A stretch of 64,000 bases of DNA from Isoetes taiwanensis (taxonomy: Eukaryota; Streptophyta; Lycopodiopsida; Isoetales; Isoetaceae). The stretch covers positions 9,004,779-9,068,778 of the forward strand of contig JAJEKV010000035.1 in NCBI GenBank assembly GCA_021234155.1. The letters are read 5' to 3'. Shown piece by piece: positions 3,327 through 53,995 of the stretch (within the stretch, counting starts at the first letter, position 1; every line of letters starts with the position of its first letter). The translations under genes and the position numbers were made by a program. Under the pieces are notes generated by a model. The model was not told the DNA's origin. It saw only the letters and a list, made by a program, of their open reading frames with translations, and ran no database searches.

Positions 3327-3436
3327 TTTGATACCTCAAGGAAACACGCTGTGGTCTCTTTCTCAAAGATACGGTGTCTCAATCCCAGACATCCAAGCAG
3401 CCAATGGCACAGAAGATCCAAACTTGATCTATGCAG
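3327..3436 (+). pseudogene. Single LysM-domain exon, copy 1
   Basis: This is an open stretch between an AG acceptor (3325-3326) and a GT donor (3437). It encodes IPQGNTLWSLSQRYGVSIPD followed by IQAANGTEDPNLIYAG. It is a good match to the LysM consensus (GDTLWSIAQRYGV, L-AAN, I-PG), a domain that binds GlcNAc-containing glycans such as chitin. No flanking signal peptide, kinase or further LysM exon was found nearby. It is probably an isolated exon of a duplicated gene. The same exon is at 41483-41592 with the sequence kept. Confidence 0.65.
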
Positions 3437-3631
3437 GTAATTGTGAATCTTTGGCATCTATATAAAGTTTGCTGTATACATCTTGAATGTATTCCATCAT
3501 GAATCTATATAATTTTAGGTGATATCCTTGTCATCCCAAATGTGTAAATTGCAAGTAAAACTGTATGTAATGGAGGTTTACAAAACAGATCATCATGAGA
3601 ACAGAGATAGTAAAAATCAGAAAAAACAGAC

Positions 3632-9252: not shown

Positions 9253-10010
9253 GTACTTAGAAAAGCCAACCCCTGCCAATCAATTGCACCATCTTAGTAT
9301 GTAAAACACACACATGCATAATATACGTGTGAAAACTTACCAAGCAAGGATCCATCCGAGCTCCAAACAGTCCTGTTAACTTTAACTGTGGGGTATATAA
9401 ACACATTCTGTATCAAACAAGACTAGGATGTTAACTAAACAATAGCTTTAAAAATACTTACTTAACGATGAATCCAGAAGACAATGATGCGTAGGCATGA
9501 AGCAAACGGATACTTTGAAGGTTCTTTGTCCCAACCTTTCCCGTGGGCCAACTTCCCATATACCTATTTCATCCACATTTGTTCCATCAAAGTAGTTGTC
9601 AGTAAGTATGTAATGATGAAACTGGAAAAGATAAAGAGACTAGAAACCAATAGCAAGCAATATTGTCTTCTTAAACTGGGTGGAAGTCCATGCTCACACC
9701 ACAAGATCCTTGAGAAAGGGTGTGTGCAAGTGTCTTTGGTAAATCATCCGCAGTTTAACGACGTTGGGGATGGCTTATACCTGCATTAGTCACCTGCAGT
9801 GAACCGGGAAGATTACAGTCTGTTGAAAAGACAACCAGTACATAAGTACTTCCAAGTTCCCAACATATTTAAAATTATCCTAGCTATCCTAAGGTGTAAT
9901 CTACACCACGAGGTCTGGGCCTTGTACACTTCAAAATGTGCTCAGTGTCAGCAGACTGGTAATCAATAGGACTGCATTTAAGCACTGAGATATGAGGCAA
10001 CCAAGATCAA
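9253..10010 (-). pseudogene. TOPLESS exons, array unit 3
   Basis: Same content and same truncation as unit 2. The SMDFHP frameshift is kept. One base differs in the SADSEH exon (CTCAGTGTC where units 1 and 2 have CTCAGAGTC). Unit 4 shares that change, so units 3 and 4 are nearest relatives. Confidence 0.8.
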
Positions 10011-11931: not shown

Positions 11932-12725
11932 GTACTTAGAAAAGCCAACCCCTGCCAATCAATTGCACCATCTTAGTATGTAAAACACACACATGCATAA
12001 TATAATGTGAAAACTTACCAAGCAAGGATCCATCCGAGCTCCAAACAGTCCTGTTAACTTTAACTGTGGGGTATATAAACACATTCTGTATCAAACAAGA
12101 CTAGGATGTTAACTAAACAATAGCTTTAAAAATACTTACTTAACGATGAATCCAGAAGACAATGATGCGTAGGCATGAAGCAAACGGATACTTTGAAGGT
12201 TCTTTGTCCCAACCTTTCCCGTGGGCCAACTTCCCATATACCTATTTCATCCACATTTGTTCCATCAAAGTAGTTGTCAGTAAGTATGTAATGATGAAAC
12301 TGGAAAAGATAAAGAGACTAGAAACCAATAGCAAGCAATATTGTCTTCTTAAACTGGTGGAAGTCCATGCTCACACCACAAGATCCTTGAGAAAGGGGTG
12401 TGTGCAAGTGTCTTTGGTAAATCATCCGCAGTTTAACGACGTTGGGGATGGCTTATACCTGCATTAGTCACCTGCAGTGAACGGGAAGATTACAGTCTGT
12501 TGAAAAGACAACCAGTACATAAGTACTTCCAAGTTCCCAACATATTTAAAATTATCCTAGCTATCCTAAGGTGTAATCTACACCACGAGGTCTGGGCCTT
12601 GTACACTTCAAAAAATGTGCTCAGTGTCAGCAGACTGGTAATCAATAGGACTGCATTTAAGCACTGAGATATGAGGCAACCAAGATCAATGAGAATGCAG
12701 GATCGCCAAAACCCCTGTGGCATCT
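11932..12725 (-). pseudogene. TOPLESS exons, array unit 4
   Basis: This is the most diverged unit of the array. It has lost one G in the run that causes the frameshift in the other units, which would put SMDFH back in frame with FKKTILLAIG. It has gained a G 45 bases upstream, which breaks the frame elsewhere. Both changes are in G runs, so sequencing or assembly error is possible. Confidence 0.75.
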
Positions 12726-14586
12726 ATCTGGTGAGTCTACCTTACTCTGCACAGCAACAAATCTGCATGCTTACCATTCACAGATGGAAAAGAAAATGGA
12801 CCGGTTTGTTTGAAGTAGAGCATCACGCATCACTGGATACCTGTAGTTGAGCAGTGTTTTCAACCAGAAATAACGTAAAGGATACCTTTCATAGTCCTGA
12901 TTATACCAATGGTATTGCAAGAAACATCCAAGGCAAGAGCAAGAAACATCTGTATTTGCAAGCTTTTAACTTCCATCTCCATTAAATCTGACTACTGCAT
13001 CTAGCTCTCCTCAAACTATGGCAGTGCCCGGTTAGCCAGTTCCACACCGCCGCCCAGCAATGGCGACCCGCCAGTTTACAGGCAACAGTAGGTTTGGAGC
13101 AGTTTTCGCATATCCTGGCATATTCCTGCATATACTTAGAATATGCTGGAAACCCACATGAGCGAGCCTAGGGGCAACCCAAAAAGTTTAATTACCCGGA
13201 AAGTCTACGTACAATCCAGAACCCTTTGACATTTTGAGGCCACACATACAGCACTTGCCTAAGATCAGACAAAACCAAGCATATTTGAAGTATTGTTCTA
13301 AGGAGGAGGTGCTGGACGGAATAATGTTTGCCTGGTAGCTCCACAAAATCGGGCAACCATTGAATGGTAAGAGAAGAGCCATTCAAATGCACGAGTGGTA
13401 ACAAAATCATAAAGTAACGGTGTGTTCATTCTGTACTCCTGATATTGAATCTTCCACCTTGGCAATGGTACCATAATGCCCTCTAATTTCTTTATTTTCC
13501 ATACCAGTCATATAGACTGAGCTCATTCTGCACAAAGCAAAGATATCACATGTTGCTCTAGGCAAGAAATATCAACCTGTTAAGCATATGATCTTGTTTG
13601 CACTACTTTGAATTTTATTTTCACTTCAACAAAATAACCTCATTTCCAAATAAGTCATATAGACTGAGCTGATTCTGCACAAGCTTATTTCCATACATGT
13701 TGCTGTAGGCAAGAAATACCAATCTGTTAAAAATATCATCTTGTTTGCACTACTTTAAAATTAAAATTTATTTTCACTTCAATGAAATAAACTTATATGC
13801 CAAAAGTGATTCAAGGATAAAATCCATGCACGATCTAGTAGATCTTATCCACAATGCATACAGCTGCTGCAAATGAGACATACAAAGAAACATGAGCTAA
13901 AAAGGACCTGAAGATGAAGATAGAGAAAAAAGGCTTTTTCTTGTTTTCAATTTGAGGCAATAGAGTTGCCTCTGTGTTATTGCACGTCTATCCATGGCTT
14001 TTAATGCAAAATCTTTGAAACATGACATGGATAAGATGAAATGAATCATGACCAAATCTATGTGGATATTCTTTTTACCTGCCTCGCGATGATTTCAATT
14101 CAAAAGTTTCACGGACCCAGCTCATCCACAAGGAGCTGGACAGGGATGAATATTGATATGAGTGATAGAATAAGCAAAATATTGCAGATGGCAAGCTGTT
14201 GTCTCATGTTCATGTGTTAGAGATTCTGCAAAAAATGCACCACTTAGAGCTTGAGCCTATCTACAAATATGGTCTTTAATCGCATAAACAATTGAACTCC
14301 ATACAGGAAGATGTTTAACTAAGTTTTTCATGAAGAAACATATTAGTTTTTCTACTGCGAATACGTGAAGTAAACAGGAAATCAGCATAATAAATACAAG
14401 ATGCATGGGAAGAATTACATGATATACTCTGAAAGTTCACTTGCTGGAAAACAGTAGAATGTCGGAATTACCATGGATGCAATGCACTATGATCAACATA
14501 TGTCTTATCCCCACTCCGCATACATGCATCCTAGGTCTCCAGATGTTTGAATTACCCTAGAATGCTGCTAAGCAAATATCTTTTAG

Positions 14587-14820
14587 ATGATACTTGAACT
14601 CTTACAAAATATAGTTCATGAGGGACAGAAAGTACCTCTAGATTACAGCAACATTGTGGACCTTCTCGCCAATGCTCTTCAAGTAATCGTACGAAAATTC
14701 TTTCCACGAATGTTGTCAAGTGCTATATCAACATCAGAGGATTTCTTCTCCAAAATCTGGAACAATGATTTGATGCACAAGTTGAGGCAGCAAAAGAGCT
14801 GCGGTAGAACAAAACATTAG
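14587..14820 (+). other. Unidentified conserved ORF next to array
   Basis: A 77-codon plus-strand frame, mostly helical in composition, with NIVDLLANALQVIV and STSEDFFSKIW. The copy at 44642-44863 keeps a 73-codon version with a few amino-acid changes. I do not recognise it. The minus strand is also partly open, so the coding strand is not certain. It lies just right of the TOPLESS array and left of the CPL4-like gene. It may be an exon of either neighbour or of a third gene. Confidence 0.25.
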
Positions 14821-15242: not shown

Positions 15243-16360
15243 ATGGAAATAGTCGGAGCCATGGAATTGGACAGCGTAGAGGCAGCTCTGGAACGGAATA
15301 TGGAGCTCGAACAACTTCTCGCTCAAAAGAAGCTGTATCTTGTTCTTGACTTAGATCACACCCCTTCAACACTGTTGGCATCGATCAGTTAGACGCTGAA
15401 GAAAAAAGAGTATATCTTGCAAAATTATTTTTTTCACGTCAAAGGAAAGTAATCAACGCTGATATTGTGCAAGGATCAGACCAGTTTTACCATTTAGATC
15501 ATTGGAAGTATTGGACAAAGCTTCGGCCTTTCGTGCACCAGTTTCTGGAGGAGGCCAGCCAGATGTTCGAGTTATATATACATACCATGGGTGAGATGAA
15601 TTATGCTTTAGCCATGGCTGGTTTACTCGATCCTAAGCTGCAGTATTTTCAAGGGAGAATCATCTCCAGTCATGGTAAGAAATGCAAGGACTTGGATGCC
15701 TTTCTTGGAGTAGAACATGCCACTTTGATACTAGATGATTCAAGAAGAATGTGGCCACAACATCAAGCCAACTTGTTGGAGGTGGAACGTTATCATTTTT
15801 TCAGCTCTAGTTGCAAGGACTTCAAACTTGAAGAGCCTTCTTTAACTCAACAACATAGGGATGAGAGCGAAATCGAAGGCAATCTCGCTAGAATACTTTC
15901 GATGTTCTTCGCGAAGGTGCATGAAGAATTCTTTAAATCATCAGATGAAGATATTAGTGTTACTCAAGTGGTGCGAAAGATGAAGAAAAGAGTGCTACAA
16001 GGTTGCCATGTTCTCTTTGATGGAGTGAGTAAACGACTTAGGGGTTCCTTGAAGCACCAGATAAAGGCTCTTGGTGCGACGTGTCATGATATTATGGATG
16101 TCTCAGTCACCCATGTCATATCCTATGTAGATAACATTGATGAAGAGAAGAGCATGTGGGCAAAGGCAAATGGATGTTTTAGTGCACCCTAATTGGCCGC
16201 AAGTCGCACTTTCAAGATGTTTGGAAGCGTCCAGAGGAACAAGATTATCCTATTACTTGGTTTCCCATCTTCTATCCTTGTTATCCAACTGTTGGTGTTG
16301 CTACTAATGATGATGTAGTGGATGAGCAAAAAAGCAAAAAAAGGAATGCCAAGCGCAGTA
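15243..16360 (+). pseudogene. CPL4/FCP1-type CTD phosphatase pseudogene A
   Basis: From ATG 15243 the frame gives KKLYLVLDLDH, the DxDxT phosphatase signature of FCP1-family enzymes that remove phosphate from the RNA polymerase II C-terminal domain. A base change in the following C run shifts the frame (DHTP instead of DHTLLNT). Extra A and T bases in two runs near 15405-15440 shift it again. From 15467 a 241-codon frame continues with KLRPFVHQFLEEAS, IHTMGEMNYA, LILDDS and RYHFFSSSC, then a BRCT-like region ending SVTHVISYVDN. Another frameshift near 16180 removes the rest of the BRCT. Order and motifs match plant CPL4. Copies B and C are at 19290 and 45361. Confidence 0.8.
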
Positions 16361-18618: not shown

Positions 18619-20215
18619 ATGAGTTACTTGAAGTTATATGATGAGGAACCTACTTGTTGGCACTATTCGGAAGAGAAGCAAATAGTAAGTCTTTTTATGC
18701 CCCATTTTCGTCCCCCTTTCTATCTAAATCTGAAGGGCGATTTTTTCTTGCTTAGAAGATGAGGTTTGCTACAACAGTTCAGGAGTTTCACGAGTACAGG
18801 AGACTGCCAAATGAGGGAAGGGATCCAAAATCCTGAAGCTGGGATGATTGCAGCATTGACAATTTCTTAACAATATGGTCCACAGATTTGAAGGGTGGTA
18901 AGATCAAATTGCACCAAGTTAGGCCTGAATTTGCTAATGACCTGGATGATTTGGTTTATAAGATATACCAGTTTGGCTTAAAAAACAAAGAAGCTAGAAC
19001 TATTTTTGCTAGAGCCTTTGCCTACGAAAATACTAGACGTGCCTTAGCTAATCCTCCCAAGCATAAGCTTAATTGGGCCCTTTTTGCATGGCATACTCTG
19101 CAAGCCTCCAAAAGAAATACAAGGAAAAGAACAAGTAGGGAAGAGACTATTGTGACTAGCGTTGCAAGAAGTATCACATTAATGGAAGATGAGCAGAAGT
19201 GCATTAAAGATGAAGTGCAGACTTTAGACCAGGAATTGAAGGCAAAGAAGAAGGTTCTTGTTGCATTGAATGGTCTTCTCAACACTGTTAGCATCGACCA
19301 GTTGGACGCTGGAGAAAAAGAGTATATCTTGCAAAATTATTTTTCACGTCAAAGGAAAGTAATCAACGCTGATATTGTACAAGGATCAGACCATTTTTAC
19401 CATTTAAATCATTGGAAGTATTGGACAAAGCTTCAGCCTTTCGTACACCAGTTTCTGGAGGAGGCCAGCCAGATGTTCGAGTTATATATACATACCATGG
19501 GTGAGATGAATTATGCTTTAGCCATGGCTGGTTTACTCGATCCTAAGCTGCAGTATTTTCAAGGGAGAAATGCAAGGACTTGGATGCCTTTCTTGGAGTA
19601 GAACATGCCACTTTGGTACTAGATGATTCAAAAAGGATGTGGCCACAACATCAAGCCAACTTGTTGAAGGTGGAATGTTATCATTTTTTCAGCTCTAGTT
19701 GCAAGGGCTTCAAACTTGAAGAAGCCTTCTTTAACTCAACAACAAAGGGATGCGAGCGAAATCGAAGACAATCTCGCTAGAATACTCAATGTTCTTCGCA
19801 AGGTGCATGAAGAATTCTTTAAATCATCAGATGAAGATATTAGTGTTACTCAAGTGCTGCGAAAGATGAAGAAAAGAGTGCTACAAGGTTGCCATGTTCT
19901 CTTTGATGGAGTGAGTAAACGACTTAGGGGTTCCTTGAAGCACCAGATAAAGGCTCTTGGTGCGACGTGTCATGATGATATGGATGTCTCAGTCACCCAT
20001 GTCATATCCTACGTAGATGTTTGGAAGCATCCAGATGAACAAGATTATCCTATTACTTGGTTTTCCGTCTTCTATCCTTGTTATCCAACTGTTGGTGTTG
20101 CTACAAATGATGATGCAGTGGATTAGCAGAAAGGCAAAAAAAGGAAGCTAGTTGGAGAAGAAAATGATGCCAAGCGCAGTAAACTTTCACAAGCTTGGAG
20201 AACATTCGATGATAA
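18619..20215 (+). pseudogene. Chimeric KHK coiled-coil :: CPL4-type phosphatase pseudogene B
   Basis: Exon 1 is 18619-18684 (MSYLKLYDEEPTCWHYSEEK). Exon 2 starts at 18756 (MRFATTVQEFHEYRRLPNEG) and has a TGA stop at 18834. From 18888 a 237-codon frame gives the KHK domain (AFAYENTRRALANPPKHK, then NWALFAWHT) and a coiled coil. It then passes without a break at LLNTV into CPL4 sequence (IDQLDAGEKEYILQNYF, FVHQFLEEAS). The catalytic DLDHT segment is replaced by the coiled coil, so this part would have no phosphatase active site. A 21-base loss near 19568 and later frameshifts break the rest, which ends in the BRCT-like region. The junction is absent from the unfused KHK gene at 53250. Confidence 0.75.
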
Positions 20216-29103: not shown

Positions 29104-30408
29104 TAAATGTTGGTTTTGTTTTTTACTTTTGGATACTACAAGTTGTTTTGGGTGCTCTAATCTGTTTTCCAATCATGTTGATGGAGCTCACCCAGCCGTG
29201 GAACCCAAGGAAATCCTATTGAAGTACCACGCTCCATGATTATTTTGTTGACCCCGCTTGCAACAAACCGAAAGAACGACGAGTTGCCTTATGGTGTTCC
29301 GTATTTACATGTTTTCTATTTTGTCGTTTCGTATTGGAGTTCATGGGAAACAAGTAGCTGGGGATGTTGTCGGAGCCATAGCCGTAGGAGATGATAAAGA
29401 GGTGATGAACAAATGTGATCTCTACTTAGTCTACATATCCATCGTCTCTATCCTGATCAATAGATGCTTTATTCGCTAGTTGAAATGACTTAACAAAGAC
29501 CCCTATCCAAAATCCAGTGACCAAGCATTAATGGGGACAATCAGGAAAATGTTTGTGTAGTGCCTTATATTTCTATAGTTCTTTACAACTCTAAAAATAA
29601 ACATAGCTCCTCAAAAAAAAAAACTGCAGCATCTTTTCAATAAATTATACTTCCACATAACAAGTCTTTGCAAATCCACATAACAAGTCTTTGCAAAACA
29701 TGACTTTTTTTTTCTGTTGTTTCATGTTGTGTTCAACTATGGACCAAATATTGGATGTATAGATAGTTGTTTTAACGTCAAAACACTAAGCAGCATCCAA
29801 CTAGACATATGACCACACACTACACTACATTGCTTGGTTGGATCCTGACCCTAACCACTTGATATTGCATCTGTGGAGCCCAAGCAATTCTGGACGATCT
29901 CGAACTTAAGACCTATAGTTGCTAGAACTAGTGTATTACCACTAGACCAAACATCCAGACGCCAATGTGTGTTAACTGATCCATTCAACTGTTTATATTA
30001 TGTTGATTCCATACAGCAATTTTCAGTTGTGGAAACCACTTTATACAAAAGGAAAATGGCAGTATATTTTGGAAAATAAAATACAATTTCTATGACTAGA
30101 CCCATTCTTAACTTTTGTGCAAGACCCGAAACTATAGGCGGTTTGCACGTCCATATTCCATCAAATTTAACCCCCCATTTGTATTTATTTTATTTTCTTC
30201 TAACACAAACCTTGTTCCTCGCGGAACACGCCCTTTGCCAGTCAAGTATTCTTTTTAACAATTATTTTTTTTTGATGGAAGTTCATTCAGTTGTGAGTGC
30301 GGAAAAAACATTTGTTCTTGTAGATTGCCAAAAGGCGAGGTTTCTCTGTTACACATATGTTATTACCAACATGTCTCTCTATTCAAGAGCTTAGCCAAGA
30401 CTTGCTTG
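29104..30408. repeat. Module P, copy 2 (partial)
   Basis: Matches 48306-49550 closely, including a 73-codon plus-strand frame (29258-29479; KQVAGDVVGAIAVGDDKEVM) that recurs at 48443-48682 and that I do not recognise. It also holds a tRNA-like stretch at 29894-29957 (minus). The match ends at CTTGCTTGTA, where the transposon begins. The SKP1-like part is therefore missing from this copy. Confidence 0.85.
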
Positions 30409-30726
30409 TACCCCAAAAGCACCGTCCGGACACTTGCTTTAAGTGCTTTAGGTGCTTATTCCTCGATCAAAATTTAGAGTAACGAATTATGAGGTTGTTA
30501 TTCCAGAAATAGCAATCCTCTTCCGAGGAGGAAGGGATCGATGACATGGATTGATTCTTTGGGCGCGAGATTGATTTCTTAGTTGATTCTACCGGATGGC
30601 GGGATTTATTGGATGGCGGGAATTTGTATCAGTTCTTGCTATCATTCTTCAATTCGGAATAAACTAGTTCATTTCAATTGCAATTCTGACAAATTAGAAT
30701 TGCAATTCCTTGATCATATCAATTTC

Positions 30727-33700
30727 ATGGCAAGTTCTCTTGAAAGCATTGATTCTGCTAAACGAAGAATTTACTTGGAGCTAGAATCCAGGAGAAAACG
30801 AGAATCCAAAAAGAGAATTAGAGAATTGGAGAAGAAGAACATTGCACCTTTAGTACAGAAGAAAAAAGAACGTTCTCTGAGTCAAAGAAGACAACAAGAA
30901 CTTTCAAAAGAGTTAGAGGATTCTTTTTTTCACATTGTAAGGAATTGTGCTGATGATGATTCAAAAGGAAGAGTAGCACACAGTTTTTTAAAAAGGATCA
31001 AACATTTACCACATGTTACTATAGCAGATCCCAAGGAATTTCATGTGATGAAAGATATGATTTGCAATGTGAGAGAAACCATGCAGGCACAAAAATTTCA
31101 AAGAGGTACTGATGTACTCCAAGCAAGGAAGACCACCCTCCAAATGGCAGCTTCCACAGTTAAAGGGATTAATCAGAGAGCAATTTCAAGGCTTCTTTTA
31201 ATTCCCAAGAAAACTGTCGCCCAGGCATTTAGAAGACGAATTTGTGCAGAGTTTGATGCTGGTCCATGTCAATGCATGCAAGGAAGAAGAGATTTGATGC
31301 ACTTTCCCCAGAAGAGATAAGTGTTGTGAGAAGGTTTTGGCATGAGAATACACGAGTTTCACCTTATAAAAAACATGTTAGAAAGCATGTAACTGAGAGT
31401 GGTGAGAAAATTGATCATCAAATACATTTGCTAGAAGTGACACAGGTATTCTCTGAACCATTTATTTGTTATTCTCATGCTTTTTTAGTTTCTATATTTC
31501 TTACATGGTTCTAAAATCTAAATTTGTTTTTTTTTTTTTTTGGTTCAGTTGCAACTATACCTTGCTTTTGAAAAGGAACATCCTGATATGAAGATATCCC
31601 AGCAGACTTTTGAAAGATTGAAACCAATCTATATTAGGAGGCTTCAAGAAAGAGAAACATGTTGTTGCCAATACCATCTGCATCTTGAGTTTGCCATGCA
31701 AGCCATAAATAACATGAGGACTGATCCTTATGGTGTACACAAAGATTGCAAGTGTAAGTGCAGAATTTGTAGTTCGGGCCCAACATGTATTGCTAAAGAA
31801 CACATAATCAAATCAACTAGTGATTATTGGAGACAAATTGTGTGCGCTAAGGATGAGAATGATGAATGGCACAAGCATGCATGTCTAATGCAGACATGTA
31901 CAAAGTGTGGTTTGAAGAGGCAAGTGTGGTTTCCTTGCAATTTCCAGTTTTGATTGCCTTGATTTTAACATATTTGATTGCTTTAACATAGGCTGCCAAC
32001 ATGCCCCAGAGAGAAGGTTAAGAATAATAAGCAGGATGTTAATTGGAAAGTGTTTGAACAGGTAAAAGTAGTTTAGATTTTACTGAGTTTTATGTGTTAG
32101 TGTAGAGGTAAATTAAAGCTTTATCCTCTTCTGCAGCAAGAAGTACAGAACAAGAAAACTAGGGCTGGCAAGAAACCTTCAAAGGTTACAAGATTGGCAT
32201 ACAAATCAGGTTCTCCTTTTGAATTCCATCAGCATGCAACTAAAACTCTGAAGACATTTGTTCCACATAATTACAGAGCTCATTAGCAAGCAAAACAATT
32301 CAGGCAATGTTTGACAGCATTTGCAGATGTTACTATTGTCTCTGTGATAGATTTTGCAGAGAATTATGGATTTAAAATTCAACAAGAAGCTCAATCCTGC
32401 CATTGGCATACTGATCAGGTCTCCATTCTTGTACACATCACTTATAGAAGAATGAGAAAATCAGAGTCAGAAGCAAGACAAAAGAAGGAAGAAGGACAAA
32501 GAGATTAAAAAGAAAAATGCTGCAAAAGAGAAAAGAAAAAACTCATTGAAAGGAATTGTGAAGGAGACTCACTTCTATATCAGTGATGACAAAACTCATG
32601 ATACTGAGTTTGTCCAGCATTGTCTCCAAAATCATGCAGATTGGCTAAAGTCTATGGGAATTAACTATAACAAACATGTTTTCTGGAGTGATGGCTGTTC
32701 TTCACAGTTTAAGTCTTCAAGACCATTTTACTTCTTTGGTAGGTTTCACAAACATCTTCAAAAGGATATTCTCTGGAATTTTTTTGCTAGCTCACATGGA
32801 AAAGGTGAGCATGATGGTGCTGGAGCTGTCATCAAGAGGATTCTAACAAAGGAACAGATGAAATATGATGGAAAGAAATTGCAGTGTGCAAAGGAGGTGG
32901 TTGCATTTCTTAGGTGGTACTTCAACAACAATCCCACTGATAATGACATAACAAGGTATACTTTACTGGTTTTTTCCTTTGCATACTTAAAGCACTTAAG
33001 CACTTAAAGCACTTAAGCACTTAAGTACTTAGAAATTAAGGGCATGAATCTATAAATTGTTTGTGTATGTGGTTGTTAATGGGCTACTCCATTATGTAAA
33101 ACATGATATTTTTCAGTCCTAAATTTTGATTGTCTTCTTTTTTTATTTTTTGATATCGATATTCTTCAACTTTTTTCAAAGATCGAAAGCACTTACAAAC
33201 ACTAAGCACTTGTGTGGTGTACTACGGGAAATTGTTCCCTCAAAAATAGATAGATCTGAGAGATTTGACTGTCATACTTTGAAAGGAACTACACAACTCC
33301 ATTGCATAAGACCATGTGACAGGGACAACACTTTAAAGGTAGCTTATAGACCTCTCTCATGCTTCTGTGAGAATTGTGTTCAATTCCAATGGGACTCCTG
33401 CACCACGAAGTCACGCATTGGTGGTTGGAAAACTACTGAACTAAAACTGAAGGAGATTAAAGCAACTAATGATGCTAATAAAGCATCAGATGAAGACTTG
33501 CAGATAGAAGATGAACATGAAGAAGAGGATGATGAGGAAGACTATGACATAGCTAGTTCTATGGTAGAGGTTGGAGATAATTTTGCTGTCAATGCAGAGG
33601 AAGGTAATGAAGAGGGGGTTGATTTTTATGTATTGAAGTGCAGAGAAGCAAAGAACACTTTGCTTGAGGATTATGTGGATGGATGGGGAAATGTATTTGG

Positions 33701-33914
33701 AGTTGAATCTGTTATTGTCTCAGGATATTACTATAAACAGGTGGGTGGTCTCAAATTTGAGCTACTGGATGACCAGCCTATGGCTAGTGTGTATAGCCAC
33801 CTTGTAAGATTAGCTAACTTTGAAATGATTGCAGATGAAGAGGATGGTATGTTGTATACTATGGCTGAAGACACTTGCCAACAGATTATATGTAGCCTCC
33901 CAAACTCAGCTTAA
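30727..33914 (+). pseudogene. Transposase-like gene of transposon copy 1
   Basis: Exon 1 (30727-31445) is basic and coiled, with a helix-turn-helix-like region (INQRAISRLLLIPKKTVAQA) and a frameshift near 31265, then RRFWHENTRVSPYKKHVRK. Exon 2 (31549-31919) has CCCQYHLHLEF and Cys pairs, and ends at a GC donor. Exons 3 (31992-32061) and 4 (from 32137) follow. Conserved acidic motifs are VIDFAENYGF, FWSDGCSSQFKS and FFASSHGKGEHDGAGAVIKR, taken as RNase H-like catalytic candidates. The C-terminus has SCFCENC, an acidic run and a conserved GDNFAVNAEEGNEEGVDFYV region. A TAG stop at 32284 replaces a Trp codon kept in copy 2, and another frame change lies near 32510. The gene is not functional as read. 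Confidence 0.75.
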
Positions 33915-34203
33915 ATTCATTATTCATTTGGTATTCAGTCAAAATACTGTTCATATGGTATTGAATCAATTACTATTCATAGTTTGACTATTAAAGCAAA
34001 AGCACTCACACAAAAACATCAATGCAATTGTAACCTGAAGATCATGTATTTATGTTCCTGAATTACATCAAAATTGTGGCATATCTGCCTGTATAACATG
34101 TACAAAATTGTGGCATGTCTGCCCGAGTTATATATAAGTCTTCACTATTTCAATATATAACCTGTAACCTGCATGAATCTGGTCTGTATCAACTTAACAT
34201 ATG

Positions 34204-34957
34204 TTAATCCTGAATCAACTTCTGCATTCTATCTCTGTGTCCTGAAGTATGAAAAGTCTCCCTTAACCATTGTAGCTGATCTTTGCAATATTGTTTTACC
34301 ATTTCAGTGGTTCCCTTTCCCAATTCAAACTCTGACATTGTTTCTAGAATCCTAAGAGCATCCTCTGTGTACTGATCTGGCCTACAATGCTCATTTAGAA
34401 TGTTAGAGAAATCATCAACCATTGCCACATCCTTAAGCACTGGCAGGAATTGGTCCAATACATAATCATCTGCATCCAAATTAAAGCCTGGAATCAAAAG
34501 AGATGTGAAAGGTGGAGAGGCAAATGTTTTATGAATACTATCATCCAACAATATGCAATTGCCCTCATATTGTGGGTATTCACTAAAAACTGCATATAAA
34601 GGTTTTAAGTACAATGGTTTTTCAGATCGGATGGGCCACTTGAAAGGCATCTCTAAGCAATGGGTCTGATCCCAAATAAATACAAAGTCATGTCTAATAA
34701 CTGGTGCTATGACATCCACAACTTCATTTACATTAACCTTGTTCATGGATGACCAAATTGCTATGTCAAAGCGTATCATTGCTGCCTGCAGAAATTCCCG
34801 TGCATGAGGCCTTAAAACAACCAATTTCTTGCTTGTTTTTGAAATCCACAATCTGTTGTCCACACGTACAGGATTGTTCCTATTGTATGTCCTTACTAGA
34901 ATACCATTCACATCTAAAATAAGAAGTTTCCTCTTCAAAGAGGACTTTGCTGTACAC
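34204..34957 (-). CDS. HAD/FCP1-fold protein encoded in transposon (last exon)
   Basis: An open frame of about 250 codons from an AG acceptor at 34958 to a stop at 34204. It begins KSSLKRKLLILDVNGILVRT, then KLVVLRPHAREFL, FDIAIWSSMN, FVFIWDQTHC, MPFKWPI and CILLDDS. This is the FCP1-homology (NIF) branch of HAD phosphatases. Motif I is DVNG, so the second Asp of DxDxT, the usual general acid, is Asn; plant DLNG-type FCP1-like proteins share this. Motif II (WSS) and the DD of motif IV are present. Activity is uncertain. The decayed copy at 58960-59716 has the same acceptor followed by a Cys codon, so there should be an upstream exon; it may lie near 35040-35090. The start codon is unresolved. 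Confidence 0.75.
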
Positions 34958-35116
34958 CTATCATTCAAAAAACATAAAGTAAACACCAACTCAAACACAA
35001 ACACAAACAGAAATTTGAAATACTAAAATAATAATAACATGTCAACTTTGATCAACCATTTGTTCAACATTTTGGTCTTGTAATACAATTGTACCTGAAC
35101 ATTCAAATATTTATAG

Positions 35117-35985
35117 TTAAATCAAAGATTTTATAGACCCATTTGAATTGCCTCTTAAGGCCTCCATAATTGCATTCATTTTGGTACCTGTTTCTTCCTT
35201 TTCTAGTTCTTCCTTTTCTGGTCCTTCCTTTTCTGTTTCTTCCTTTTCTAGTTCTTCATTTTCTGGTCTTGTTTCATCCGTTTCAGATTCAACCTCAACG
35301 TCCTTTACAGATTCCATATCCTTTGCCAATGCCCTCCTTCTAAAATTGTACTTCCTGCCTTCTTGACCTGTGTTCTTTGCCTTCTTAATGTTTTTGCTCT
35401 TCTTTGTTGCAACCTCTCCATCTTTCCTTTTCCTTTTGTTGGCTGCTTTCTTCTCTCTCGAAGGGGTACTTTGTACATCCTTACTACATCCTGCATCATC
35501 CTGTTCAACAACAGTTTCATCCTGCTCACTTGCATAAAATTCAGTGGATGCTTTTCTAGCTGCTCTTTGCCTTAACTGCTTTTTAGGACTACACAATGCA
35601 TCTTTCAGCACTTTTTCAATTCCAGAAGGTGGCACATAGTCTTCAGTAGTAGAAGAGGACCTAACAAGTGAATCATGCTGATTTGTAGGTATATCTACTG
35701 TAGGCATATCTACTATTTTATTTCCTTCTGCTGCTGTCACATACATGCCAAGCTCAAGAAATAAATCTGGATGAATTACACCCTCACATACCTTGCATTT
35801 ACCTTCCTTCAACAAGGCTGCACAAACCACATGGTACTCATGATCACAACTCAAAATCAAAGACAATTTGTACCTATCATGAAAAAGTAGGCCACAAGCA
35901 CAGCAAGCACCAAAGTTGCAGATTCCTGGTAGTCTTCTGCTGATAGTGTTGATGCAGAATGGATTACAACTTATATTCTTGATTA
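35117..35985 (-). CDS. RING-H2 protein encoded in transposon
   Basis: The frame runs from about 35985 to a stop at 35117, and the 249 codons from ATG 35866 are open. Upstream of that ATG the same frame gives CNFGACCACGLLFHDRYKL. It continues with SCDHEYHVVC and CKVC, so the full ligand pattern is C-x2-C, C-x-H-x2-H-x2-C, C-x2-C. That fits a RING-H2 E3 ubiquitin ligase finger. The middle is rich in Lys and Arg (KKAANKRKRKDGE, KKSKNIKKAK), likely a nuclear signal, and the tail has a Glu-rich repeat (EELEKEETEKEGPEKEELEK) before MEALRGNSNGSIKSLI. The start is not resolved; a stop lies upstream of 35985 in this frame. The last part recurs in copy 2 at 59990-60083. Confidence 0.65.
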
Positions 35986-36081
35986 CGTAAGATTAGAAAG
36001 ATTAGCTCGAGTTCTGAAATTCGGCCTCTTTCTCTTTGATCTCCACTTCCAAGGTATTTTTCCTCGTTTCGCTTCCTTACG

Positions 36082-36829
36082 TCAGATCGGAGACTTGAAA
36101 AGTTTTTTAACTCGGTTACAGTAATATGTCTCCATTTGTAGTGTCAGCTCCAATTCCTTCATCAGATCAGAATTTGCATTATCTGATTGCAACTCAGATA
36201 TTGAGGTCTTCAAATCCTCAATTTTCTTCATGCTCTCTTCAAGTTCCACACTGAATTTTTCATTAGACTTAGCCTCTGCAGTTAAACTAACCTCAATTGC
36301 ATGCACCTCTTCTAACATGCTTGCCCTTTCATTCTCAAGCTTATTTACAGCTTCCTTAATCAATTCAAAGTTCTCGTTTAAAGCAGAGTGGTCTAATTTT
36401 GAACTTTCTAAGCAAGTAACTTTGCTAGAAGTGGCAACATGGACATCCTTTCCCCTAGACCTGCAATTTCTATACTTCATAACTTGAGCGCCAAAAGAGG
36501 CCCAATTGATCTTGTGCTTTGCAGGGTTTGAAATGGCAGTATCATAATTTTCCCATGCAAAAGCATAAGCCACCTGCTTTCTCACTTCATTGTTTGGCAT
36601 AGTTTCCTTTTGATATAATTTTTTCAACAATCTGTCCAATTTTTTTCGGGAAGAAATTTTGGATCATAGAAACTTTCATCTTATTGCTTGGGCCTTCTTG
36701 CCAAACCGAGGCCCATTGTGCATCTGTTACATTCTCTTCCAACCATTTTACTTTCAAAGCAGGCTGCAATCCTTCACCAGAAAGTCCATGAATGTCTATG
36801 AAATCTTGCTCGGTCACCGCTTCGGCCAT
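36082..36829 (-). CDS. KHK-domain coiled-coil protein of transposon (one frameshift)
   Basis: Starts MAEAVTEQDFIDIHGLSGEG at 36829. The frame shifts once in an A7 run near 36646 and continues to a stop at 36082, for about 245 residues in all. The centre (VAYAFAWENYDTAISNPAKH, then KINWASF) aligns with module R genes at 18888 and 53385 (AFAYQNTRRALANPAKHK, then LDWALF), including an upstream VW at equal spacing. The C-terminal half is a long coiled coil (NKLENERASMLEEVHAIEVS and onward). No known domain name comes to mind. The frameshift could be a homopolymer error, in which case the gene is whole. It lies at the right end of the element on the same strand as the HAD and RING genes. Confidence 0.6.
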
Positions 36830-37499
36830 TGTAAAATGAATGGATCAAAGGATTGTGTGACGGAATTGGTGATCTAGGAAGAGGATTCGGAAACAGGGGA
36901 TTCGAAATTGGGGCTGAATAAAGAAAGGCGCGCGGGAAACGAGGCAAATGATGTCCTCTGAAAAAAAACTGTCACTGCTCGAATTTAGGTGCTTTAGGTG
37001 CTTGGTGCTTTCGCGCATTTTGGGGCATTTTGGGCGATCTCGAACTCAAGATCTGTAGTTGCTAGAACCAGTGTGTTACCACTAGACCAAACATCCAGAC
37101 ATCAATGTGTATTAAGTGATCCATTCAACTGTTTATATTACGCTGATTCCATGAAACAATTTTCAGTTGTGAAAACCACTTTATACAAAAGGAAAATGGC
37201 AGTATATTTTGGAAGATAAAATACAATTTCCATGACTAGACCCATGCTTAACTTTTGTGGCAGACCTGAAGCTATAGGCGGTTTGCACGTCCATTTTCCA
37301 TCAAATTTAACTTCCCCATGCGTATTTATTTTATTTTCTACTAACACAAATCTTGTTCCTCGTGGAACACGCCCTTTGCCAGTCGGCTACTCTTTCTCAC
37401 AATTATTTTTTTGATGGATTCATTCAGTTGTGAGTGAGGAAAAAACATCTGTTCTTGTGGATTGCCAAAAGGCGAGGTTTCTCAGTTACACATATGTTG

Positions 37500-38465
37500 T
37501 TACCAACATATCTCTCTATTCAAGAGCCTAGCCAAGGCTTGCTTGTTTTTGCAGTGCCCGTCCTCTCTGCTATATGATTTCTCAATCTTAAATATTATAT
37601 CCAACTCTTTGGATGTCTTGCCAATCGTCATTTTATGAACTTTCTGATAAGTCAGCTCAAGCAAACTTTGGACTTCTAAGTAATCTGCCATCTATATACA
37701 AAACTAGCCACCATTAAGCACCATGAATTAGGGACATAGAATTACAAAATAGTCTAAAAAGATGAAAGAAGAAACAATGGAACTACATAATCAAAAGTAG
37801 AGCCCTAAAATGGGTCAGAAGATGCACATAGAACATGCACTAATTAATATATAAGACGAAGCAAAACTCCGATACCTCAACTGAAGATCTTAAAACACTA
37901 ATATAAAAAACTAAACTAACCAGGAAAAGCTTGAAGATGGTTGTCTTTTCGATGTTAAGGAATTTATGATCCCAATTATTCATGACATCCTCAGTTTCTC
38001 CGAGCTTATCCGCATCAACATGATAATTATTGTACTCGAATACCTTTGCAAGAATTTCAGTTGAAATTATGAGCAAAGGGATTTTGTCAGCGCCCTCTTT
38101 TTGTTGGATCATATTTTTATTAAGGAGGTTTTAAAATCTACGGCCTCTTCGAGCTCAAATATTTTTCCTTCCCAGCTTCGGACCTTGAGCTTCCTCATAC
38201 AATTATTTTCCTCATCGCTACATTTATGCCTAAACCAACCGAGGCAACTGACCTTTGATGGTTTCACCATTTTGCTCTTGTCACCTTTGTTACTCGTTCC
38301 TGCGCCGAGTTGGGGTTGACTATTAATCACAATCTCATGGCAGAAGAGACACTTGCACTTTGAGGCACATGATTTTGTTCCAAGTTTCGATTTTGAATTC
38401 TTCAAATATCGAACAAAAAACCTAACTAACACCAATATGAATACGCACTTATAGTGTTTTTTCAA
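37500..38465 (-). pseudogene. SKP1-like pseudogene, copy 2 (most complete)
   Basis: Frame 38465-38109 gives CMRKLKVRSWEGKIFELEEA, then breaks by a small deletion before the helix that reads IKNM in copy 1. Frame 38112-37921 continues with MIQQKEGADKIPL, ILAKVFEYNNYHVDADK and DVMNNWDHKFLNIEKTTIF. A donor (G|GTTAG) follows at 37920. Exon 2 (37691-37500, acceptor AG 37693-37692) gives ADYLEVQSLLELTYQKVHKM and IGKTSKELDIIFKIE, matching the SKP1 C-terminal helices that contact F-box proteins. The terminal ENQWAFE-type tail of SKP1 is replaced. The N-terminal extension with two CxxC-like pairs is shared with copy 1. It is an SCF adaptor relic and is not intact. Confidence 0.75.
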
Positions 38466-38536
38466 CCTTAGATCATGTCATATTATTTTTGCCTTTAGGA
38501 TCCCGGGCAAATGCAGTTTCAACAATTGTGCAGGTT

Positions 38537-45123: not shown

Positions 45124-45360
45124 CAAAAACTAAATCTAGGAAAGACGTTTTTAGTAATCGATCCTAGAATACCATTTTTCCCGCCCTACATTCGTGGACT
45201 AAAGTGTAAAAGGAAACGATCTGGGCCTTTAGATCAAAAAGTGCAGAATATTCTGACCTAACTAAGAAAGTTTGTGTTTGCGCATTTACCAGACAAGATC
45301 ATAGTTTGTGTTTGCGCATTTACTAGACAAGACCAGACAAGATCACGTACGAGAGAAGCG

Positions 45361-46558
45361 ATGGAAATAGTCGGAGCCATGGAATTGGACAGCGTAGAGG
45401 CAGCTCTGGAACGGAATATGGAGCTCGAACAACTTCTCGCTCAAAAGAAGCTGTATCTTGTTCTTGACTTAGATCACACCCTTCTCAACACTGTTGGCAT
45501 CGATCAGTTAGACGCTGAAGAAAAAGAGTATATCTTGCAAAATTATTTTTCACGTCAAAGGAAAGTAATCAACGCTGATATTGTGCAAGGATCAGACCAG
45601 TTTTACCATTTAGATCATTGGAAGTATTGGACAAAGCTTCGGCCTTTCGTGCACCAGTTTCTGGAGGAGGCCAGCCAGATGCTTTAGCCATGGCTGGTTT
45701 ACTCGATCCTAAGCTGCAGTATTTTCAAGGAAGAATCATCTCCAGCCATGGTAAGAAATGCAAGGACTTGGATGCCTTTCTTGGAGTAGAACATGCCACT
45801 TTGATACTAGATGATTCAAGAAGGATGTGGCCACAACATCAAGCCAACTTGTTGGAGGTGGAACGTTATCATTTTTTCAGCTCTAGTTGCAAGGACTTCA
45901 AACTTGAAGAGCCTTCTTTAACTCAACAACATAGGGATGAGAGCGAGATCGAAGGCAATCCCGCTAGAATACTCGATGTTCTTCGCAAGGTGCATGAAGA
46001 ATTCTTTAAATCATCAGATGAAGATATTAGTGTTACTCAACTGGTGCGAAAGATGAAGAAAAGAGTGCTACAAGGTTGCCATGTTCTCTTTGATGGAGTC
46101 AGTAAACGACTTAGGGGTTCCTTGAAGCACAGATAAAGGCCCTTGGTGCGACGTGTCATGATATTATGGATGTCTCAGTCACCCATGTCATATCCTATGT
46201 AGATAACATTGATGAAGAGAAGAGCATGTGGGCAAAGGCAAATGGATGTTTCTTAGTGCACCCTAATTGGCTGCAAGCTGCTCAGTATGTTTGGAAGCGT
46301 CCAGAGGAACAAGATTATCCTATTACTTGGTTTCCCATCTTCTATCCTTGTTATCCAACTGTTGGTGTTGCTACAAATGATGATGTAGTGGATGAGCAAA
46401 AAGGCAAAAAAAGGAAGCTAGTTGGAGAAGAAAAAGATGCCAAGCGTAGTAAACTTTCACAAGCTTGGAGAACATTCGATGATAAGAGAGAATCTTCTCA
46501 AATTCTTCATCAGAAGGTGAATGTTCTCACAATGTCCCCTTTTGTAATACCATGCTCT
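45361..46558 (+). pseudogene. CPL4/FCP1-type CTD phosphatase pseudogene C
   Basis: From ATG 45361, MELDSVEAALERNMELEQLL leads to LYLVLDLDHTLLNTV, a complete DxDxT catalytic motif, then FVHQFLEEASQM. A 40-base deletion near 45680 removes the FELYIHTMGEMNYA segment and shifts the frame. Frame 45618-46136 continues with LILDDS and RYHFFSSSC. One lost base near 46132 shifts it again. Frame 46166-46561 encodes the BRCT end (THVISYVDN, FLVHPNWLQAAQYVWKRPEE) and a basic KGKKRKL nuclear signal. This is the fullest copy. CPL4 enzymes act on the RNA polymerase II C-terminal domain in the nucleus. The upstream 45079-45261 frame is not part of the family. Confidence 0.8.
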
Positions 46559-48305: not shown

Positions 48306-49500
48306 AAATATAAATGTTGGTTTTGTTTTTTACTTCTGGATACTACAAATTGTTTTGGGTGCTCTAATCTGTTTTCCAATCATGTTGATGGAGCTCACCC
48401 AGCCGTGGAACCCAAGGAAACCCTATTGAAGTACCACGCTCCATGATTATTTTGTTGACCCCGCTTGCAGCAAACCGGAAGAACGACGAGTTGCCTTATG
48501 GTGTTCCGTACATGTTTTCTATTTTGTCGTTTCGTATTGGAGTTCATGGAAAACAAGTAGCTGGGGATGTTGTCGGAGCCATAGCCGTAGGAGATGATAA
48601 AGAGGTGATGAACAAATGTGATCTCTACTTAGTCTACATATCCATCGTCTCTATCCTGATCAATAGATGCTTTATTCGCTAGTTGAATTGACTTAACAAA
48701 GACCTCTATCCAAAATCCATTGACCAAGCATTAATGGGGACAATCAGGAAAATGTTTGTGTGGTGCCTTATATTTCTATAGTTCTTTACAACTCTAAAAA
48801 TAAACATAGCTCCTCAAAAAAAAAACTGCAGCATCTTTTCAATAAATTATACTTCCACATAACAAGTCTTTGCAAAACATGACTACACACTACACTATAT
48901 TGCTTGGTTTTATACTTCCACATAACAAGTTTTGCAAAACATGACTACACACTACACTACATTGCTTGGTTGGATCCTGCCCCTAACCACTTGACATTGC
49001 ATCTGTGGAGCCCAATAGTTCAGAGTGCAATTCTGGGCGATCTCGAACTCAAGACCTGTAGTTGCTAGAACTAGTGTATTACCACTAAACCAAACATCCA
49101 GACGCCAGTGTGTGTTAACTGATCCATTCAACTATTTATATTATGCTGATTCCATACAACAATTTTCAGTTGTGGAAATCACTTTATATATAAAAAAAAT
49201 GGCAGTATATTTTGGAAGATAAAATGCAATTTCCATGACTAGACCCATTCCTAACTTTTGTGGAAGACCCGAAACTATAGGCGGTTTGCACATCCATATT
49301 CCATCAAATTTAACCCCCCATGTGTATTTATTTTATTTTCTTCTAACACAAACCTTGTTCCTCGTGGAACACGCCCTTTGTCAGTCAAGTATTCTTTCTG
49401 AAAATTATTTTTTTTGATGGAAGTTCATTCAGTTGGAGTGTGGAAAAAACATTTGTTCTTGTAGATTGCCAAAAGGCGACGTTTCTCCGTTACACATATG

Positions 49501-50345
49501 CTATTGCCAACACGTCTCTCTATTCAAGAGCTTAGCCAAGACTTGCTTGTTTTTGCAGTGTCTGTCGTCTCTGCTATGTGATTTCTCAATCTTAAATATT
49601 ATATCCAACTCTTTGATATCTTGCCAATCGTCATTTTTGTGAACTTTCTGATAAGTCAGCTCAAGCAAACTTTGGACTTCTAAGTAATCTGCCACCTATA
49701 CACAAAACCAGCCACCATTAAGCACCATGAATTAGGCACATAGAATTACAAAATGGTCTAAAAAGGTGAAAGAAGAAATAATGGAACTACAAAATCAAAA
49801 GTAGAGCCCTAAAATGGGTCAGAAGATGCATATAGAACACGCACTAGTTAATGTATAAGATGAAGCAAAACTCTGATACCTCAACTGACGACCTTAGAAC
49901 CCTAATATAGAAAACTAAACTAACCACGAAAAGATTGAAGACTGTAGCCTTTTCGATGTCAAGGAATTTATGATCCCAATTATTCATGACATCCTCACTT
50001 TCTCCAAGCTTAGCCGCATCAACATGGTAATTATTGTACTCGAACACCTTTGCAAGAATTTCAGCTGAAATTATAAGCAAAGGGATTTTGTCAGTGCCCT
50101 CTTTTTGTTGGATCATATTTTTTATTAAGGGGGATTTAAAAGCTACAGCCTCTTCGAGCTCAAATCTTTTCCCTTCCCAGCTTCAGACCTTAAGCTTCCT
50201 CATACAATGATTTTCCTCATCGCTACATTTATGCCTAAACAACCAAGGCAACCGACCTTTGATGATTTCACCATTTTGATCTTGTCACCTTTGTTTCTCA
50301 TTCCTGCATCAGGTTGGGGTTGACTATTAATCACAATCTCATGGC
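49501..50345 (-). pseudogene. SKP1-like pseudogene, copy 3
   Basis: The core MIQQKEGTDKIPL, ILAKVFEYNNYHVDA and DVMNNWDHKFLDIEKATVF is open (50116-49844). The upstream strand KVRSWEG has a TGA in place of the Arg codon. Exon 2 (about 49690-49501) retains ADYLEVQSLLELTYQKVHK and then changes frame. This is a different set of breaks from copies 1 and 2. Confidence 0.7.
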
Positions 50346-51140
50346 AGAAGAGACACTTTCACTTTGAGGCACACGATTTTGTCCTAAGTTTCAAACCTAA
50401 CTAGCACCAATATGAATACGACACTTATGGTGTTTTTTCAATCTTAGCTTCTTGAATGATGTTAACCTTCAACATGCTACTTCGAAAGAAGACTCTTGGA
50501 TGATGTTAAGCTCCTCTAGTTCAAAGAAGACTCTTGGATGATGTTAATCTCCTCTAGTGTAGAAGAGACACTTGGATTTCGAATCTTCAAATATCGAACG
50601 ACAAACCTAATTGGCACCAATACTTCATGTTTTTCACAGCCATTTTTTTTTCCTAGTCTCTTGTTTTTGTTGTAAATAGCCTCAGTCGAAGAACTACTGA
50701 GTTCTGGAAACTTAAAATATGTGAGTTGTGCGTTTTCTAAAAGATTAGACCTTTAATCTGCAAGAAAAAAAGACACCGCTAAATATAAGATTGATCTTTA
50801 GGATCCCAAGTCAATGCAGTTTCAACAACTATGTAGGTTATTCATTGTAATCCTGATTCTCTATATTATGTTGTTCATTTGGTGGATGTAAATTTGTTGG
50901 AGTGCAGTTATATAGCAGCCGGTTATAAATATTTGAGGGGTTTTTTATTCCTACTTTTTGGAACGTCTTCTAATTCATTAGGTCATCAAATAGAGTTTCT
51001 CTTCTGGTAGCGGATTGATGGTGCATCTACTGCAAGGAGCTCAAATTCTGTTGTAAAATGCGGCACAAAGAAGATATAAGTCATTATTGTGGGAAGAAGA
51101 TCTTGCCTGTGGTACTTGCATCATATTCAAACTTGAAAAG

Positions 51141-53249: not shown

Positions 53250-53995
53250 ATGAGTTACTTGGAATTATATGATGAGGAACCTACTTGCTGGCACTATCTG
53301 GAAGAGAAGCAAACAGTAAGTCCTTTTATGCCCTATTTTCGTCCCCTATCTAAATCTAAAGGGCAATTTTTTCTTCCTTAGGAGATGAGGTTTGCTACAA
53401 GTGTTCAAGAGTTTCACGAGTACAGGAGACTGCCAAATGAGGGAAGGGATCCAAAATCCTTAAGCCGGGATGATTGCAGCATTGACGATTTCTTAACAGT
53501 ATGGTCTACAGATTTGAAGGGTAGTAAGATCAAATTGCATCAAGTTAGGCCTGAATTTGCTAATGACCTGGATGATTTGGTTTGTAAGGTATACCAATTT
53601 GGCTTAAAAAATAAAGAAGCCAGAACTATTTTTGCTAGAGCCTTTGCCTACCAAAATACTAGACGTGCCTTAGCTAATCCTGCCAAACATAAGCTTGACT
53701 GGGCCCTTTTTGCATGGCACACTATGCAAACCTCCAAAAGAGATACAAGGAAAAGAACAAATAGGGAAAGAGACTATTGTGACTAGCATTGCAAGAAGTA
53801 TCATATTATTGGAAGATGAGCAGAAGTGCATTAAAGATGAATTGCAGACTTTGACTAGGAGTTGAAGGCAAAGGAGAAGGCTCTTGTTGCATTAAATGGC
53901 TCTGCTTGAAGGACTTGATAAATTGCTTGCCTCAGTCTCAGCTGATATACAGGAGACCAAAAATGATATTGTAGCACCTAAAGGAAATAAGTCCC
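53250..53995 (+). pseudogene. KHK-domain coiled-coil gene (unfused copy)
   Basis: Exon 1 (53250-53315) gives MSYLELYDEEPTCWHYLEEK. Exon 2 starts at 53382 (EMRFATSVQEFHEYRRLPNE) after an in-frame GT-AG intron and continues to FARAFAYQNTRRALANPAKH and KLDWALFAWHTMQ. There is no stop at the site where the 18.6-kb copy has TGA. An extra A near 53767 shifts the frame (RDYCD stop). A second indel near 53852 follows. Beyond it the coiled coil would continue as LLEGLDKLLASVSADIQETK, the original tail that is missing in the CPL4 chimera. It is related to the transposon gene at 36082-36829. Function unknown. Confidence 0.6.

Follow-up and report, generated by a model that had tools for sequence, protein, structure and literature searches.

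A decayed copy of a multi-family DNA transposon in Isoetes taiwanensis that very probably carries a HAD gene and a coiled-coil-RING gene as integral cargo

The window analysed here is a stretch of 64,000 nucleotides of the Isoetes taiwanensis genome (assembly GCA_021234155.1, contig JAJEKV010000035.1, positions 9,004,779 to 9,068,778). At its centre lies one dead copy of an old, multi-family cut-and-paste DNA transposon, in which a transposase gene faces a HAD gene of the NIF/FCP1 fold and a gene encoding a coiled-coil protein with a RING-H2-type finger (Table 1). A plus-strand transposase-like gene opposed by minus-strand open reading frames (ORFs) had been recognized in a first-pass annotation made from the sequence alone, and this arrangement was confirmed by exon matches and by the ORFs themselves. 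The same annotation counted three accessory genes. HAD, RING and coiled-coil sequences are all present on the minus strand, but the latter two are parts of one gene, as seen in the copies at loci L001 and L016.

Table 1. Positions of the transposon copy, its genes and its flanking repeats, counted from the first nucleotide of the window
Feature	Position	Strand	Basis or remarks
Remaining element body	30411..37025	.	Alignment with seven same-family copies; end search
Inner part of left terminal inverted repeat, CCCCAAAA	30411..30418	+	
Left subterminal repeats, AAGTGCTT-TAGGTGCTT	30441..30457	+	Candidate binding sites
Transposase gene, about five exons, with stop and frame changes	30727..33908	+	Splice sites by eye
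HAD main exon, NIF/FCP1 fold, open frame, motif DVNGILV	34204..34959	-	Pfam NIF; alignment
Coiled-coil-RING gene, in pieces	35117..36829	-	N-terminal domain 36587-36829, coiled coil 36082-36663, RING and charged tail 35117-35992
RING-H2 core, C-x2-C-x15-C-x-H-x2-H-x2-C-x8-C-x2-C	35786..35905	-	Conserved ligands
Right subterminal repeats, AGGTGCTT-TAGGTGCTT-GGTGCTT, mirror of left end	36987..37010	+	Candidate binding sites
Inner part of right terminal inverted repeat, TTTTGGGG (as read on +)	37018..37025	-	
Left copy of 524-bp flanking repeat, segmental duplication, outside element	29887..30410	+	
Right copy of flanking repeat	37027..37546	+	

The window copy is defective. Exon matches to another copy place its transposase gene at 30727-31445, 31549-31920, 32170-32956 and 33228-33908, with a further short exon placed by eye near 31992-32061; the gene is broken by a stop at about 32285 and by at least two frame changes (near 31.28 kb and at 32.45-32.53 kb). 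The coiled-coil-RING gene is split into three ORFs in different frames, at 35117-35992, 36082-36663 and 36587-36844, the last of which includes the likely start codon. The HAD ORF is open.

The octamers CCCCAAAA and TTTTGGGG had been taken for the element ends; both are present, but other copies end about 22 bp further outward. Alignment with other copies, combined with a fuzzy end search, fixed the true ends as GGGTGTAAATTTGATAGTGGTACCCCAAAA and the reverse complement of this sequence. Where both ends can be read, copies start with GGGTGTAAAT, and CCCCAAAA is the inner portion of a 30-bp terminal inverted repeat (TIR) of which the window copy lacks the outer 22 bp or so on either side. No readable target-site duplication was found around the window copy. 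By contrast, all 11 loci in which the fuzzy search found both ends are bordered by a 4-bp target-site duplication; they comprise L002-L006, which belong to the window copy's family, together with L008, L010-L012, L014 and L016, the duplication of L002 agreeing only if the final TIR base is taken as changed. At L007, whose left TIR has an internal deletion, gatg was seen by eye at both sides. Seventeen loci were fetched where protein searches had placed element genes and are a non-random sample; L001-L007 align with large parts of the window copy at 93-96%. The left ends of the more distant L017 and L028, GGGTCTAAGTT and GGGTGAAAGTA, differ from the search pattern by three and four mismatches, respectively, and L028 contains a second plus-strand end match for which we have no explanation. 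Discarded as spurious, for their 3-4 mismatches and wrong place, were 5' matches in L013 and L015 and matches near 2.2 kb in several loci.

In the genome as a whole (1,658,258,908 bases, 1,110 contigs) the 30-bp end, allowing up to three mismatches, has 119 forward and 129 reverse occurrences, and the same pattern reversed has none; the occurrence of the end pattern thus exceeds chance. Four close end pairs among the places listed are short derivatives (L034-L037) of 385-395 bp with both ends present. They are built from about 295-336 bp of the left end and 72-86 bp of the right end and are 96.5-98.6% identical to L003. Since each of the four has its own 4-bp duplication, the element ends alone suffice for mobility in trans. 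Most copies of the window family have units of the type RRGTGCTT roughly 52 and 61 bp inward of the left end and, in mirror image, at the right. Similar units are found in L008 and L010-L012; in L014 and L016 the left end lacks them and the right end has one. The window family has a further cluster at 32985-33030, in the intron preceding exon 5, and element middles hold one to eight units per 5.2-7.1 kb (raw counts). The subterminal repeats are candidate binding sites.

The genes recur together throughout the genome. Each genome search scored the best 140-150 of 978 to 10,635 candidates, so that absence of a gene from a match list means little. Merging by position brought 546 rows (150 of 155 for HAD, 150 of 150 for the transposase, 106 of 144 for RING and 140 of 151 for the coiled coil, unlisted rows and overlapping duplicates being omitted) into 305 groups; a search with the N-terminal domain of the coiled-coil-RING protein was kept out of the merge. 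Among these scored matches, 24 groups contain all four probes, 29 combine coiled coil, HAD and RING, 22 combine HAD and transposase, and 166 contain a single kind (78 transposase, 41 HAD, 34 coiled coil, 13 RING). The order transposase-HAD-RING-coiled coil is found in 137 of the 139 groups with at least two kinds; the exceptions, C920:2948033 and C1065:5393872, have extra RING or coiled-coil matches that we take as neighbouring copies. In all 241 adjacent pairs the transposase lies opposite to the other genes. Copies with a transposase alone, which the first-pass annotation had named as evidence against its proposal, were not seen in a sample: eight transposase-only groups drawn at random from the 78 and inspected over 5 kb each all contained a convergent HAD gene, and four of them also a RING. 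The transposase-only class thus reflects the restriction of scoring to the best 140-150 candidates. A transposase was likewise present in all four of the 41 HAD-only groups that were examined.

The association extends to distant relatives. L028, which was found through a Pfam NIF search, has the same gene order with identities of 35% in transposase exon 4, 33% in HAD and 39% in RING. Together with the randomly drawn loci, this locus supports the earlier suggestion that the accessory genes are the element's own, if unusual, cargo. In L017, whose exon 4 is at 57%, the start of a HAD is preserved along with a weak remnant of the RING (E 0.33). The window itself contains a second decayed copy from a related family, with a transposase on the plus strand (56351-58475) facing a HAD gene on the minus strand (59704-58967) that is 75% identical to that of L010. 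None of 144 candidate stretches in viral contigs proved to be a relative. Among 74 from GTDB genomes there was one, L018 (contig CAKZGI010000474.1, filed under a Trichormus metagenome-assembled genome); it encodes part of a transposase, broken and with 41% identity to the window element's family, and is probably plant DNA contamination, perhaps from a fern host.

Both cargo genes are kept by selection across families. Ratios of non-synonymous to synonymous substitution rates (dN/dS) were calculated by the Nei-Gojobori method; columns in which local identity was low were removed beforehand, and pairs at saturation yielded no estimate. Between families, dN/dS is 0.18-0.29 for HAD (seven pairs, dS 0.74-1.11) and 0.16-0.29 for the coiled-coil-RING gene (seven pairs, dS 0.69-1.58). 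The corresponding values for the transposase are 0.13-0.24 for exon 1 (dS 0.43-2.2) and 0.06-0.12 for exon 2; exon 4 gave 0.26 at dS 0.27 and 0.08 at dS 2.6. The remaining between-family pairs were saturated or more diverged. Near-identical copies have dN/dS values of 0.5-1.1, as expected from decay after insertion. Gene distances are also correlated in Mantel comparisons, with r values of 0.743 for transposase and HAD (30 loci), 0.800 for transposase and RING (22 loci), 0.856 for HAD and RING (22 loci) and 0.881 for transposase and N-terminal domain (20 loci), and for each gene pair none of 2000 permutations reached the observed r. The cargo has travelled with its transposase and was not newly caught.

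Three stretches of the transposase stand out as conserved, VIDFAEN, WSDGC-QFK and HGKGEHDG. Their Asp residues are present in 18 of 21 (VIDFAEN), 32 of 32 (WSDG) and 31 of 31 (HDG) loci and are candidates for a catalytic triad of three Asp residues (DDD), but the Glu of HGKGE is likewise kept, in 30 of 31. A weak helix-turn-helix match was obtained (HTH_23, E 0.0017), and a profile search of PDB gave no match below E 0.2.

Among the window frames scanned, HAD alone scored above a Pfam cut-off, the other eight remaining below. Its stop-to-stop ORF (34204-35022, minus strand) matches NIF (PF03031) with an E-value of 3.4e-17 and 63 bits against a cut-off of 21.8, which is also exceeded in L014 (53.2 bits) and L028 (72.4 bits). 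A profile made from seven element HAD sequences matches UBLCP1 (3shq, E 2.6e-8), CTDNEP1 (8ujl, E 7.5e-4) and FCP1 (3ef0, E 2.7e-3). Active NIF/FCP1 phosphatases carry the active-site motif DxDx(T/V), from which the element HADs deviate. The nucleophile Asp is found in 29 of 29 readable copies, followed at position +2 by Asn in 29 of 30 (the remaining one has a gap), so that the motif reads DxNG rather than DxDx. The Ser of motif II (29 of 31), the Lys of motif III (25 of 30) and the two Asp residues of motif IV (27 and 30 of 30) are largely conserved. Judged by these residues, the active site is kept but altered. Ordinary phosphatase activity is less certain because of the conserved Asp-to-Asn change, and the protein may instead bind phosphorylated partners or turn them over slowly. 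The HAD frame is separated from the RING stop by 97-170 bp in the window copy, L001, L008, L014 and L016 (390 bp in L028), and has no upstream Met in the window copy; the gap and the lack of a Met suggest that HAD and coiled-coil-RING may share a single transcription unit. A splice scan for a coiled-coil-RING-HAD fusion found no in-frame donor/acceptor pair common to the families (L010 was not framed).

Other genes of the same fold were encountered. Copies of a host FCP1-like gene lie in segmental duplications of the window at 15350-16189, 18837-20123 and 45262-46558, the first with NIF and BRCT domains, the other two assigned by DNA similarity and by eye. At L029:3988-4962 (minus strand), a NIF-type HAD (E 4.6e-21) with a DMNG motif belongs to another type of repeat without the element transposase and adjoins an ORF that appears ParB-like by eye.

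In L001 (5398-7113) all three stretches of the coiled-coil-RING gene lie in one open frame of 572 codons from stop to stop (567 amino acids), as they do in L016 (590 codons, 585 amino acids). Moreover, RING, coiled-coil and N-terminal searches report frames of identical length at C1027:10848097-10849797 (572) and from C1050:5927279 on (633). The layout is a conserved N-terminal domain of about 120 amino acids, which matches no Pfam family, followed by a coiled coil, the RING-H2 and a charged tail; in many other copies the gene is interrupted. RING-H2 fingers have eight zinc ligands in the order C-C-C-H-H-C-C-C. This order is found here, with each position conserved in 18-21 of 21-22 loci, and we take the finger as RING-H2 by its ligand pattern. 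The best match of the coiled-coil-RING alignment in a PDB profile search by E-value (0.0012) was the designed repeat protein 8vd6, which was set aside because it covered the same 29 profile positions repeatedly; RNF38 was matched with an E-value of 0.07. The protein may have a role as a ubiquitin ligase. Fragments 34-36% related to the N-terminal domain occur at 18759-19142 and 53394-53702, and an apparent fusion of such a relative with a HAD at 18759-19598 is no element gene: near 19275 two duplicated segments meet, which joins one of the fragments to an FCP1-like copy.

The surroundings of the window copy are themselves duplicated. The two 524-bp direct repeats that flank it are about 90% identical and form part of a segmental duplication occupying a large share of the window. 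A reading of them as resembling long terminal repeats was rejected, since the flanks correspond to segmental duplications and paralogous single copies lacking the element occur at 306-1893 and 48941-50447. Within the window, the left flank (29104-30410) is closest to 48311-49550 (92-97%) and the right flank (37027-38536) to 437-1893 (94%); the closest relatives are thus two different paralogous places (48311-50447 and 306-1893) with one 524-bp segment each. The window copy sits in a chimeric context and probably lost its ends through recombination. Elsewhere in the window, 3891-14615 holds four units in tandem, each about 2.68 kb long and 98-99% identical to one another, and a minus-strand ORF at 63130-63999 resembles by eye the end of a reverse transcriptase of the type of long interspersed nuclear elements. 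The L014 copy seems to be inserted in another transposase-like ORF, whose halves were seen by eye at L014:89-580 and 7900-8877.

Based on these data we consider it very probable that the element is a three-gene transposon with integral cargo. We propose that its transposase would recognize the ends through the inverted repeat starting with GGGTG and the subterminal RRGTGCTT repeats and would move the element by a 4-bp staggered cut; the same transposase or a relative would also have mobilized the deletion derivatives of about 395 bp. The coiled-coil-RING-H2 protein may form multimers that act as a ubiquitin ligase. The HAD protein, whose second active-site Asp is replaced by Asn, might bind phosphorylated proteins or work as a slow phosphatase and so assist in substrate choice. 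Possible substrates are a host factor acting on the element, from the silencing or RNA polymerase II (Pol II) machinery, or the transposase itself. The cargo may thereby help the element to manage its host or its own movement. This pairing of a ligase with a phospho-adaptor is tentative, and we would not call it probable. Taken as a whole, a dead copy of a three-gene transposon with ligase and phospho-adaptor cargo is our best explanation, and we regard its chances as evenly balanced.

Several observations weigh against this explanation. No family in Pfam or NCBIfam matched the transposase above its cut-off, and the structure model of its exon 4 (predicted local distance difference test, pLDDT, 41.5) has an unreadable fold. 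The first exon of HAD was sought and not located. For the finger, the Pfam zf-RING_2 scores stay below cut-off (at best 21.6 bits against 27.3, E 2.6e-4, in L028; 12.9-14.7 bits in other scanned copies), and the model of the RING region reached a pLDDT of 52.5, with about 40 within the RING itself; both models were too poor for a fold search to be made. RING went undetected at E 1e-4 in 10 of 32 loci, nine of which are pieces of 4-5 kb that may not reach it, the tenth being L017, and no RING match inside the window accompanies the second copy (56.4-59.7 kb).

The alternatives differ mainly in what they make of the minus-strand genes. That these are host genes lying by chance beside a transposase remnant, the other objection raised with the first-pass annotation, has next to no probability left: the genes lie between TIRs with target-site duplications, and they are met again at many sites, always arranged in a fixed order. 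Hardly more credible is a recent capture of HAD and RING from host genes in the manner of Pack-MULEs. Host NIF genes are many, and FCP1-like copies are present in the window itself; however, the same cargo is found in far-apart families with correlated divergence and dN/dS near 0.2, and element copies read DxNG, whereas L027, an FCP1-like gene nearby, has DLDHT. On gene order, duplications, dN/dS and co-divergence, we rejected both recent capture and chance neighbourhood.

More serious is the possibility that the accessory proteins serve transposition directly and that neither acts on host silencing. The coiled-coil-RING protein might then bridge the subterminal repeats or set the level of transposase via ubiquitination, with HAD as a structural partner. 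The mirror-image subterminal repeats near both ends in most families read are in favour of such co-factors, as is the sufficiency of the ends in cis indicated by the short derivatives, and RAG1, itself derived from a transposase, contains a RING with reported ligase activity (PMC4411706). On the other hand, a fold resembling phosphatases of the Pol II carboxy-terminal domain (CTD) would more naturally fit a host transcription target. We hold a role of the cargo purely in transposition, including its bridging or level-setting variant, to be conceivable, if somewhat doubtful. It is also tempting to speculate that the element stands outside the described superfamilies and that its DxNG HAD, a Pol II CTD-type protein acting as a pseudo- or trapping phosphatase, selects phosphorylated host proteins for ubiquitination by the RING protein, so that the element reprograms the chromatin of its own copies. 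Transcription or silencing proteins would then be ubiquitinated at element copies, and success of the lineage would depend on the pair; we consider this extended scenario unlikely.

Few DNA transposons are known with regulatory proteins clearly under selection. If the pair acts on host silencing, the element would make it possible to test by what means transposons evade control in non-flowering plants. Its copies are also a source of numerous HAD proteins in which an altered active site is fixed and maintained by selection. A report of a transposon with a NIF/FCP1-type HAD gene was not found in the open literature, most subscription papers and Repbase lying outside the search, and the main text of a 2026 review on gene capture by plant transposons is silent on RING, phosphatase, ubiquitin and Sola. 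According to a 2015 paper, RING fingers are not encoded by transposable elements outside the Chapaev/Transib group (PMC4411706).

Among known transposons, Sola elements (Sola1, Sola2 and Sola3) share with the element the 4-bp duplication, which for Sola2 is also documented elsewhere (PMC3627910), as well as element size and presence in spore plants, to which a candidate DDD can be added here. The 4-bp duplications and the conserved Asp residues suggest a Sola-like element; we do not file it as Sola, the comparison having been made by description and not by sequence. The available Sola text mentions no RING or HAD cargo, and some Sola2 elements carry Fanzor1, unlike the element described here (PMC3627910). 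Membership in the Mutator-like elements (MULEs) is excluded because their duplications measure 7-12 bp (PMC10741241) and not 4 bp. Within the MULE superfamily, VANDAL elements with VANC are, like the present element, plant DNA transposons with accessory genes. The VANC protein counteracts silencing and binds short motifs that recur in non-coding parts of the VANDAL element, and the portion of text available describes no RING or HAD, in contrast to the situation here (PMC5735166). With respect to the HAD protein itself, the element copies mostly retain the motif II Ser, motif III Lys and motif IV Asp pair of UBLCP1, CTDNEP1 and FCP1 and differ from these NIF/FCP1-type HADs in the Asn that replaces the second Asp of DxDx in readable copies. 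As for RING fingers, that of Chapaev is fused to the transposase, whereas here it is part of a separate gene on the opposite strand, which excludes a Chapaev with RING. Chapaev ends start with CAC, unlike the ends found here, which start with GGG. In the Chapaev/Transib group and the RAG1-RAG2 ancestor, too, a DNA transposon encodes a RING finger, and the RAG ancestor has a second accessory gene (PMC4411706). By analogy, the element may be viewed as a cut-and-paste transposon with regulatory cargo, resembling in this respect VANDAL with its VANC and the ancestor of RAG1-RAG2.

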